64,000 nt of DNA from Natrinema versiforme (GTDB lineage Archaea > Halobacteriota > Halobacteria > Halobacteriales > Natrialbaceae), in NCBI RefSeq assembly GCF_005576615.1, contig NZ_CP040331.1, positions 124,001 through 188,000 of the forward strand, in the 5' to 3' direction. The notes below the pieces were generated by a model, which saw only the letters and a list, made by a program, of their open reading frames with translations, had not been told where the DNA came from and ran no database searches. The first letter of the stretch is position 1. Each line of letters starts with the position of its first letter. The position numbers and the translations under genes were made by a program. Positions 18,234 to 43,363 of this stretch are shown here, in pieces.

Positions 18234-18415
18234 TGATCGATGTAGCCGTTCGAGGAGGTAAGGTATTTCGTATCGATTGGCGACATGTTAAGGTATTAAT
18301 ATTATTGGCGTGCCCTCACAGGCCCTCATACGGATGAGTAAGTCAGTAACCCACGACTGAACAGTAGTTGCTGAAGTGGCCAGACAACGATTGTCGTTGC
18401 GGTCGTTGTCTCGAT

Positions 18416-19540
18416 ATGGTCGAGACAACTGAGGCAACGCAGGTGACTCGAGCAGTTTCATCACTGCTGTTTCCGGAACTTGACTTCGGGATCGCCGCGA
18501 ACGGTACCTATCCGAGCGAGGACTTCCAGCGAGCCCTCGCTCGGATCGCATTCGACAACGAGTTCGTCAATACTGGTGCGAAAGCCTATCAGCTTGCCCG
18601 TGGCGACGATATTGCTATTGATGCAACCGCTCGAAATCCGCTCGCACGGGCGCTCCTCTACCATTTGCGTGGACTCGACGCGGACGCGGTCGACGACCAG
18701 TTCGACCGCGTCCGCGAGGCAATCCTCGAGGAAGCAACTCGCAACCGGATGTTCACCCGGCCGGTCGACGTCGCAATCGACGTTCACGACTGGCTCTATT
18801 ACGGGGACGAAGAGACTCCTCACGTCTGTACAACGAATCCTGCGCAGGGTACCGATCGTGCGTACAAGGTCGCTACGTATCGTTGATCCGAGCATCCGCT
18901 TCACGCTCGGATCGGTAGCTCTGAAAGGCAGCGATACCGACGAGTTGGCGGATGCACTCCGCCAACTCGTCTCAAAAGCCCGCGAGTACGTCGACATCAA
19001 TCAGCTCTACCTCGACGTGGTTTCTACCGCGTTCACCTCGCATTAGCGCTCGAAGAACTCGACGTTGAGTTCCTGATGCGTGCGCCGCAAACACGAAAGG
19101 TACAGCAATTCATTGACGACCATGACAGCGACACGTTCATCACGGAGTACGAGATGGCTCGGTCGAATCCGCCGACGGGCCGGACGACAGTCCGACTCGT
19201 CGTCGTTCTGCACCGAACACGAGATGATGACCACTTCTGTCTGGTCACCAACCGCAATCTCGACGTCAGTTCCGACGTCGAGATCGCTTGGCCACTGGCC
19301 GAAGCGTATCGCCGTCGCTGGGGCATCAAGACCTCCTATCGGAAGATTACGGAGTTTCTCCCGAGAACATCGTCACCAATGTTCTCGGTACGGCTGTTCT
19401 ACTTTCTGTTCGCTGTCGCGTTGTACAATCTGTGGGTGTTGACGAACCTGCTCGTGACGCCCCGCCGGGCGGTCAGGACGACTGGATCCGTCCCGACCGC
19501 CCTGTTTCACGCGGTTCTCGGGCAAATACTGTACAGATAG
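18416..19540 (+). pseudogene. ISH3-like DDE transposase with two frameshifts
   Basis: Three reading frames join into one near full-length transposase of about 375 residues. The first runs from MVETTEATQVTRAVSS to DRAYKVAT. The second (LRIVDPSIRFTLGSVAL to INQLYLD) begins near 18880. The third (FYRVHLALALEELDVEFLMRAPQ to the TAG at 19538) begins near 19020. AIDVHDWLYYG and the YRRRWGIKTSYRKI signature suit the ISH3/IS4-superfamily. The two frameshifts make it inactive. I could not identify terminal inverted repeats. Confidence 0.72.
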
Positions 19541-20751: not shown

Positions 20752-22281
20752 CTATCGATCCCTCTCAGTCGATTCGGCGGTGTTCTCCTCGGAGGATGGG
20801 AGTATCTGGGGTCCGCCCGCCTGCCGACTGTATAGCCACTCTGCCCAAGAGAGTTTGAGTTGACTCGGATCTCGGTTCGGGAACTGCCGTTCGGCCGTCT
20901 GACTATAATTGAGCAGCGCGACCAGCAGAACACCTCCAATTATATTGCCGAGTGTGACTGGCACAAAGAACGCTGCAAACGCGGCCCAAAGGCTGGTATT
21001 CCCCTGAAAAACAAAGTAGAGAACTTCGCATGCACCCGTAATGCAATGGAACAGGTCGGCCGATGGAATCAGAAACATGAGGAAAATGACAAGCAGTAAT
21101 CGCGTCGTCGTGTCCCGACTTGCATGCACCAGCCAGACCATCGCTGCGACGATATTCCCGGCGAAAATACCCTTGAAGAAGAGATCCCACCAGCCGGTTT
21201 CGAACGCATGTTCGCCGAAACCCAAAGCAACCTCGGCAGCCTGAGGGGTAAAGACGCCCGTCGTTGCGAGGACGAACGCACCGAGAGCTGCGCCGAGAAC
21301 GTTCGCGACGATAACGATTCCCCAGAGTCGAAGCAGGTTTCGAATACTCGCGATACGCGTCAATACGAGCGTGACGGGTGTGAGCGTGTTCTCGGTGAAC
21401 AGCTGATACCGTCCAAGTACGATGAGGATAAATCCGACCGGATAGAACAGGTTCCCGATCAGTGGCGCCGACTCGAGTGGAACGGTCGCGGTGACCGCAG
21501 ATCGTGCGAGAAACGTCAACGTGATTGCAAGCCCAGCAGCTAACCCACTCATGAACAACTGGCGCTTGCTTCTGCTAAACTCCTCGTCCGCGGTGGCGAC
21601 GAGTCGCTGGAAAATTTCGTCCGCCGAAAAATAATCTCGGATTGCCGCGCCCGCAGCCGGCGCTCCGCTTCGCGACCGTTCGATCGTCTCGCGCATCGAC
21701 CTGTTACGGTGTCGAATAGAGGCCTGAATCGCACTGAGATCGCCCGCCTGGACGATTGCTTCGAACAGTGGATCGTGCTTGAGGGGACCGTTGTACCGGC
21801 GGCCGTTGATGAAGACCGTTGGCGTGCCATTAACGCCGCTGTGTGCTCCGCTCGCGACGTCTTCTTCGATGCGTTCCTCGTGAACCCCAACATCCAACTC
21901 TCGAGTGAGCTGTTCGGTATCAAGCCCGAGTTCGTCGGCGTATCTAGTCAGGTCCTCGTCGGTGAGTGCGTCCTGATGCTCGTAGAGGATGTCATGCATC
22001 TCCCAGAACATTCCCTGCGCGGCGGCGGCTTCGGCAGCTTCCGCGGCACGCAGGGCGTGTGGGTGAGCCTCCGTGAGCGGAAAGTGCCGGAAGACGAACC
22101 GAAGTTTGTCGCCGAGTCGGTCCTGAATACGTTTGATTACCGGGTATAGATCGCCACAGGACGGGCACTCGAAGTCTCCGTACACTACCAGCGTGAGCGG
22201 CGCATCGTCGGGGCCGCGCACGTGATCGCGCTCCGTGACTGGGACCGCAAGCGTCGAGACCGTAGATCGACTCATGAACAA
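20752..22281 (-). CDS. DsbA-like thioredoxin domain fused to a formate/nitrite-type channel
   Basis: A 509-residue fusion. Residues about 15-190 are a DsbA-family thioredoxin fold with the active site CPSC (39-42), FRHFPL and the cis-proline loop NGTPTVFING. After a linker of about 50 residues (ERSRSGAPAAGAA), residues about 235-480 form a six-helix FNT/FocA-like channel: FMSGLAAGLAITLTF, YPVGFILIVLGRYQLFTENT, LIPSADLFHCITG and GNIIGGVLLVALL. The GRYQLFTENT and GNIIGG motifs are typical of YfdC-like FNT proteins. No signal peptide precedes the DsbA part, so it probably faces the cytoplasm. Transported substrate and redox partner are unknown; thiol-dependent gating is speculation. Confidence 0.92.
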   Translation of the reverse strand: MFMSRSTVSTLAVPVTERDHVRGPDDAPLTLVVYGDFECPSCGDLYPVIKRIQDRLGDKLRFVFRHFPLTEAHPHALRAAEAAEAAAAQGMFWEMHDILYEHQDALTDEDLTRYADELGLDTEQLTRELDVGVHEERIEEDVASGAHSGVNGTPTVFINGRRYNGPLKHDPLFEAIVQAGDLSAIQASIRHRNRSMRETIERSRSGAPAAGAAIRDYFSADEIFQRLVATADEEFSRSKRQLFMSGLAAGLAITLTFLARSAVTATVPLESAPLIGNLFYPVGFILIVLGRYQLFTENTLTPVTLVLTRIASIRNLLRLWGIVIVANVLGAALGAFVLATTGVFTPQAAEVALGFGEHAFETGWWDLFFKGIFAGNIVAAMVWLVHASRDTTTRLLLVIFLMFLIPSADLFHCITGACEVLYFVFQGNTSLWAAFAAFFVPVTLGNIIGGVLLVALLNYSQTAERQFPNRDPSQLKLSWAEWLYSRQAGGPQILPSSEENTAESTERDR

Positions 22282-42637: not shown

Positions 42638-43363
42638 TTACGCGTCTCTGATCCGTTCGATCGCCTCGTCGAAGCGCTCGATGGGCTGTGCGCCGACGAG
42701 CGTCCCGACGGATTCGGAGTCCGGATCGAAGACGGAGAATGTCGGCGTCCCCCCAACGCCAAACGAGCGTGCTTGCTCGCTATCCGCGTTGATCTCGTCT
42801 TCGAGCGCCGATCGTCGATCGTCGAGACACGACTCGAGCGAGTCGGCGTCGACGCCGTCGACCGAGCGCGTGTACTCGAGGAGATTCTCGGCTGTGGCCC
42901 AGCCGGAGTTCTTCTCTCCCTGTTCCTCGAAGATCGCCGCATGCCAGTCCCAGTACGTCGATGGGTCGGCGTCGCGAACCTGGTCCCATACGCACTTGCC
43001 GCCGATCGCGGCCGTCATCGAGTCAGCACCGAAGTACGGCAGCGAGATGAATATGATTCGGACCGTACCCTGTTCGACGTACTTTCGAATGAGGTCGGGG
43101 AGCGTCTCCCGTTCGAACTGTTCGCAGAACGGACACTGGAAGTCCGTCCAGTAGTAGATATCGAGCGGTGCATCGGACGCACCCATAATCGGCTTCCCCT
43201 GCAATTCGACGCCGAGGTTCGATGTCTCGTCGCTCGAGTGAAACGACGGGGAGAGGTCGTGAGCTGCGTCGTCGGATCGTGTGAGATAGTAAGCACCGCC
43301 GACGCTGAGAGTTCCAACGAGACCCGTAACGAGAGCGCGACGAGACGGCTGATCGAGCGACAT
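42638..43363 (-). CDS. Exported DsbA-family thiol oxidoreductase
   Basis: A 241-residue protein with a Tat-like leader (PSRRALVTGLVGTLSVGG, residues 6-23). It then has a DsbA/thioredoxin domain with active site CPFC (about 77-80, in FQCPFCEQFERE) and cis-proline GGTPTFSVF. Extra cysteines (GGKCVW, LESCLDD) sit in the helical insertion. It probably makes or isomerises disulfides in exported proteins. The 23-bp palindrome at 43411-43433 lies about 50 bp upstream of its start. Confidence 0.92.
   Translation of the reverse strand: MSLDQPSRRALVTGLVGTLSVGGAYYLTRSDDAAHDLSPSFHSSDETSNLGVELQGKPIMGASDAPLDIYYWTDFQCPFCEQFERETLPDLIRKYVEQGTVRIIFISLPYFGADSMTAAIGGKCVWDQVRDADPSTYWDWHAAIFEEQGEKNSGWATAENLLEYTRSVDGVDADSLESCLDDRRSALEDEINADSEQARSFGVGGTPTFSVFDPDSESVGTLVGAQPIERFDEAIERIRDA

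Follow-up and report, generated by a model that had tools for sequence, protein, structure and literature searches.

Channels of the formate/nitrite transporter (FNT) family transport hydrosulfide and nitrite and are gated by pH. FocA of E. coli is one of the described systems closest to the protein studied here; as in FNT proteins generally, its N-terminus is cytoplasmic (PMC9380403), and the pore is gated by this N-terminal domain when it contacts PflB (PMC9380403, citing Kammel 2021). The YfdC group of FNT channels is uncharacterised and without known substrate (PMC5525234, PMC10971958). It is recognised by a glutamate at the position of FocA Ser92, a glycine at Asn172, a residue other than phenylalanine at Phe202, aromatic residues at Leu79 and Asn254, and a charged residue at Gly86 (PMC5525234), and the same paper describes no added redox domain on these channels. 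Haloarchaeal fusions of an FNT with UspA have also been reported (PMC3102087), and the second FNT of the genome studied here (L002) carries two C-terminal UspA domains, as assigned from its sequence and that report. These proteins belong to the same haloarchaeal FNT family as the protein described below and likewise carry a soluble domain of the stress type at their cytoplasmic face, but their addition is a C-terminal UspA, whereas ours is an N-terminal dithiol domain of the DsbA type. Each half of the present protein is already known and FNT-UspA fusions are published; in open-access text, no paper describing a DsbA-FNT fusion was found, which is weak evidence of absence, and none on an NhaA-DsbA fusion.

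The window, i.e., the whole stretch of DNA that was analysed, comprises 64,000 nucleotides of Natrinema versiforme. On its minus strand, a single open frame (20752-22281) contains a Thioredoxin_4/DsbA domain and a complete FNT channel, as the first-pass annotation, made from the letters alone, had proposed; the joining of both in one protein was confirmed by Pfam and fold matches to each half within 507 amino acids. The gene runs from an ATG at 22275 to the stop at 20752. This ATG was chosen over a TTG at 22281, which merely adds two residues upstream, because the relatives begin at the same residue: they open with MSRST or MSQTE at the equivalent position, making the ATG the homologous start. 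The active-site cysteines, given earlier as Cys39 and Cys42, are indeed present, but with this start they are Cys37 and Cys40. The features of the locus are as follows:

20752..22275, minus strand: complete fusion gene, 507 aa, ATG start (open reading frame and Pfam, homologous start in relatives, dN/dS)
21751..22233, minus strand: DsbA/Thioredoxin_4 domain, residues 15-175, with C37-P-S-C40 and cis-Pro152 (Pfam, alignment, fold match)
21580..21750, minus strand: linker and FNT N-terminal helix region, residues 176-232 (starts of unfused-FNT matches, pLDDT, dN/dS)
20890..21579, minus strand: FNT channel core, residues 233-462, with pore residues His410, Thr294, Glu295, Gly373 and Ile403 (Pfam, alignment, fold match)
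20755..20889, minus strand: C-terminal cytoplasmic tail, residues 463-507, predicted disordered (pLDDT < 50)

Pfam matched Thioredoxin_4 to residues 15-174 (E 3e-24), DSBA to residues 28-164 (E 7e-18) and Form_Nir_trans (PF01226) to residues 220-457 (E 6.5e-54, profile positions 1-239 of 240); this full-length match, together with the FNT fold, places the C-terminal half in the FNT family. An AlphaFold model of the single chain, built from the window and relative sequences, had a mean pLDDT of 76.8; the cores of both domains, DsbA and FNT, were modelled with confidence, and linker and tail came out disordered. The N-terminal domain matched BdbD (3eu3, Z 23.0), and the FNT core matched FocA (3kcv, Z 26.1 over 220 residues) and HSC (3tdo, Z 25.6). 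The linker region was mostly modelled at low confidence, with pLDDT < 50 across residues 193-232, and no contact between the DsbA domain and the pore was seen in this single-chain model, where the linker is disordered. Matches to unfused FNTs start at query residue 184-193, and from about residue 190 on the linker region is conserved in unfused haloarchaeal FNTs as well. Elsewhere in the window, frames at 18368-19540 on the plus strand resemble transposase remnants, the tested part having no Pfam match.

An FNT relative occurs in 246 of the 292 haloarchaeal genomes sampled, which include Halostagnicola larsenii and Natrialba taiwanensis, but the fusion in only 10 of them (11 copies, two of these in one genome). 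Plasmid and genome collections add further copies from Natrinema zhouii (2 copies), Halocatena salina (2), Halosolutus gelatinilyticus, Haladaptatus, Halocatena pleomorpha and others, so that the search for the same domain order across genomes, which had been recommended at the outset, yielded about 20 intact loci across Halobacteria, often plasmid-borne. No viral occurrence of the fusion was found. Pairwise dN/dS was 0.07-0.21 for the DsbA part, 0.03-0.11 for the linker in most pairs and 0.03-0.11 for the FNT part, the slower-evolving of the two domains. Purifying selection thus acts on both domains and on the linker (dN/dS 0.03-0.21 overall). Since about 20 loci recur and dN/dS is well below 1 in all parts, a chance origin is excluded, and the fusion in haloarchaea is real and conserved. 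In NCBI records, the fusion genes are annotated just as 'formate/nitrite transporter', and on a Halocatena plasmid (L039:6001-7506) the annotated start falls inside the fusion and leaves out the DsbA domain despite an open frame. Broken copies also occur: in Natrialba aegyptia (L079:5450-5570), the fusion is interrupted by a short MITE-like insert with inverted ends TACTGCCGGACAAAA...TTTTGTCCGGCAGTA and an in-frame stop, and the copy of Haladaptatus halobius (L086) is broken by frame changes.

In the alignment with FocA, Y278, F282, R289, L292, F293, T294, E295 and N296 of the window protein correspond to FocA positions 75, 79, 86, 89, 90, 91, 92 and 93, and G373, I403, H410, T413 and F436 to positions 172, 202, 209, 212 and 254. 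With FocA it shares the FNT fold and the central His and Thr; His410 of the central pore and Thr294 of the omega-loop are present in all 46 alignment rows. However, the FFHA constriction of the FocA/FdhC formate channels reads YIHT here (Y278, I403, H410, T413), and FocA has no dithiol domain and is gated by PflB. The window channel carries the YfdC signature instead, with E295, G373, I403, F282, F436 and R289; the likeness to YfdC-type FNTs thus covers Glu at Ser92, Gly at Asn172, the aromatics at Leu79 and Asn254, and Ile/Val at Phe202 (PMC5525234). Judged by its aligned pore residues, the pore is of the YfdC type and not of the FocA type. Transport of formate, nitrite or hydrosulfide, the cargo named in the first-pass annotation, is therefore not to be assumed (PMC5525234). 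Two further cysteines beside the pore His, Cys411 and Cys416, are found in 18 and 19 of 23 fused channels versus 3 and 8 of 23 unfused ones, but as a fusion-linked trait they were rejected, as three independent tree-aware pairs showed no trend and the pattern reflects shared descent.

The DsbA half has the fold and the motif of exported DsbA proteins, with C37-P-S-C40 and cis-Pro152 (TP), so that its earlier description as a complete CPSC oxidoreductase domain is accurate. The export signal of a DsbA thiol oxidase is missing: the fusion protein has no N-terminal hydrophobic signal segment (19-residue hydropathy maximum 0.64), and free-standing relatives start at the same place. An ordinary exported DsbA was rejected for lack of this signal. 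The domain is 53-62% identical to free-standing proteins without a signal segment and about 30% identical to other haloarchaeal DsbA proteins, and it belongs to a cytosolic, peroxiredoxin-linked subfamily, not to the exported folding type. The absence of an export signal was therefore recognised correctly from the beginning, but not the nature of the domain, which had been taken for a normally exported DsbA. Because of the missing signal and the known topology of FNT proteins (PMC9380403), a cytoplasmic location is expected for the DsbA domain, which agrees with the cytoplasmic face assigned to it before. The window also encodes an ordinary exported-type DsbA (42638-43363, minus strand) with the motif FQCPFC and a start resembling a twin-arginine signal; it shares about 27% identity with the fused domain. 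Among the fusions, the CXXC active site is intact in 21 of 23 rows. In L012 (genome G209), it has turned into SSEC and the FNT part lacks any cysteine, while the sister L011 retains CPNC.

The relatives of this DsbA family were surveyed through the best 80 matches to the domain in one-per-species genomes of bacteria and archaea. Among these, 53 adjoin a gene for one AhpC/TSA peroxiredoxin (one of them an NhaA fusion), 11 are fused to NhaA in both orders, 9 are fused to FNT and 8 have none of these; the stop of the redoxin gene and the start of the DsbA gene frequently overlap by four bases (ATGA). Such free pairs, as in Bosea (L042) and Halosolutus (L033), encode the same DsbA subfamily, 53-62% identical to the window domain, but their DsbA is soluble, unfused and encoded with its own peroxiredoxin. 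The peroxiredoxin, whose PDB matches include AhpE/Rv2238c, has one near-invariant Cys (59 of 60 rows) and a second Cys in 37 of 60; a peroxiredoxin of the one-Cys type would depend on a dithiol supplied by another protein or molecule. The 292 haloarchaeal genomes contain three copies of the gene, all of them beside the DsbA gene or the fusion, with a chance of about 4e-5 by a hand count that assumes independent genomes, which the genomes are not. It adjoins four fusions, those of Halosolutus, G186, Halocatena salina and Halocatena marina, all of another subclade than that of the window. The cognate redoxin is not near most fusions of the window's own subclade, and it is absent from the window's genome, which has only generic peroxiredoxins (34-36% identity), so that the window protein must use a different partner, if any.

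The fusions to NhaA place the same DsbA subfamily on the cytoplasmic side of another H+-linked transporter, at either end, although this Na+/H+ antiporter is unrelated to FNT; in Actinobacteria the order is NhaA-DsbA. In an Anaerolineales bacterium (L104:4887-6896), the DsbA domain stands at the N-terminus of NhaA, the reverse of the actinobacterial order, and directly follows the cognate peroxiredoxin gene. NhaA carries only Na+ and H+ and has no redox substrate, and its fusions therefore argue for regulation rather than substrate chemistry. In Blastococcus (L152:3507-6263), the NhaA-DsbA protein bears an additional C-terminal cNMP-binding domain, which suggests a regulatory tail.

In the FNT tree, most fusions fall into one well-supported set of 23 rows alongside two unfused channels, L015 and L016, which branch inside the main fusion clade or next to it and indicate that the channel also works without a DsbA domain. 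The fusions L039, L074 and L076 are placed elsewhere, and a single FNT-side origin for all fusions was rejected (AU p 1.3e-4), as their FNT parts belong elsewhere. In the DsbA tree, by comparison, the FNT-fused domains stand apart from all free and NhaA-fused ones (support 95/84). A fusion on the Salinibacter ruber plasmid pSR116 (L034:5932-7503) has the reversed order FNT-DsbA and the active site CPTS; its FNT part groups with the haloarchaeal fusions, and horizontal transfer is likely. The simplest reading of both trees would be one capture of the DsbA domain, a subsequent switch to another FNT partner in one line, the reversal of order in Salinibacter, and some losses. The pairing thus persists through rearrangement, given the inverted order in Salinibacter and the different FNT partner of one clade of fusions. 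Apart from UbiA in one Natrinema plasmid, no conserved operon surrounds the window gene, and beyond the redoxin of one subclade the fusions share no operon and no conserved neighbourhood.

On the basis of the observed domain architecture, which is conserved and under selection, of the YfdC-type pore and of the genetic linkage between the DsbA family and one peroxiredoxin, we tentatively propose, with a probability of roughly 0.4, that the fused DsbA is a cytoplasmic peroxide- or thiol-responsive module that tunes the FNT channel. The plasmid-borne channel, for an anion or weak acid, would bear this N-terminal dithiol domain at the cytoplasmic mouth of a presumed pentamer. The disulfide or dithiol state of the CXXC motif would be set by exchange with the one-conserved-Cys peroxiredoxin or with other oxidised cytoplasmic thiols, and a change of state would move the N-terminal segment or alter its contacts, opening or throttling the pore, so that a small acid and its proton would pass at a rate that follows peroxide or thiol stress. 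For this redox-tuned gating speak the roughly 20 intact loci, which agree in domain order and show low dN/dS, the peroxiredoxin beside the DsbA family in 53 of the best 80 genome matches and its single near-invariant Cys, the fusion of the same family to NhaA at either end (L104, L152), the survival of the DsbA-FNT pairing through order reversal and partner change, and the precedent of FocA, whose N-terminal domain gates the pore via PflB (PMC9380403). Against it stand the lack of a cognate redoxin in the window genome and near most fusions of its subclade, the disordered linker without DsbA-pore contact in the model, the unfused L015 and L016, and the retention of fusions without a full CXXC in L012 (SSEC) and Salinibacter (CPTS), which implies that thiol chemistry is not required in every member. 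A bolder version, which we regard as possible but rather doubtful, holds that the peroxiredoxin itself relays peroxide stress to the fused DsbA and so gates a weak-acid or anion pore, the same portable module controlling NhaA antiporters.

The absence of DsbA-pore contact from the model would suit an arrangement in which the FNT is mainly a membrane anchor or scaffold, its pore ungated, and the five DsbA domains of a pentamer form a membrane-bound reductase for the peroxiredoxin or for oxidised proteins. The genetic tie to the peroxiredoxin and the active site kept in 21 of 23 rows are consistent with such a role. However, the pore His, Thr, Glu and Gly are strictly retained in all fusions and the FNT part changes at a lower rate than its DsbA counterpart, both of which indicate that channel function is retained; moreover, the FNT partner differs in one clade and is yet always a full FNT. 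We consider this arrangement unlikely.

The patchy, frequently plasmid-borne distribution and the lack of a conserved operon, except for the redoxin of one subclade, would also be expected if the two domains shared just expression level and location and the fusion had been fixed on plasmids without direct functional coupling. Selection on the linker, the reversed order in Salinibacter and the exchange of the FNT under the same DsbA clade argue against this, and we judge it decidedly improbable. Still less credit is given to a chemical action of the DsbA domain on the cargo, such as the reduction or trapping of hydrosulfide or polysulfide, nitrite-derived species or chlorite on entry. The redox domain at the cytoplasmic exit and the hydrosulfide and nitrite transport of FNTs would fit it, as would the reported links between FNT and chlorite (PMC9751292), but the pore belongs to a type without known substrate (PMC5525234, PMC10971958), members of this DsbA family are also joined to NhaA with its Na+ and H+ substrates, and the neighbourhoods examined show no conserved sulfur, nitrite or chlorite gene beside the fusion. 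Finally, a sequencing or assembly error joining two genes that are separate in relatives, for which the two separately broken copies of Natrialba aegyptia and Haladaptatus halobius might be cited, is ruled out for practical purposes, as the relatives are fused too, with about 20 intact in-frame copies in independent assemblies and low dN/dS.

Through gene neighbourhood and repeated fusion, the finding ties a DsbA family that is uncharacterised to a peroxiredoxin that conserves a single Cys and to two unrelated transporter families, FNT and NhaA. It also offers a functional handle on the YfdC-type FNTs, and a covalent dithiol domain at the gating N-terminus would make redox control of an FNT channel directly testable. 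For haloarchaea, the fusion may represent the control of a small-anion channel by oxidative stress; if the peroxiredoxin relay and the control of NhaA were true as well, one domain family would couple peroxide sensing to membrane transport in both archaea and bacteria.
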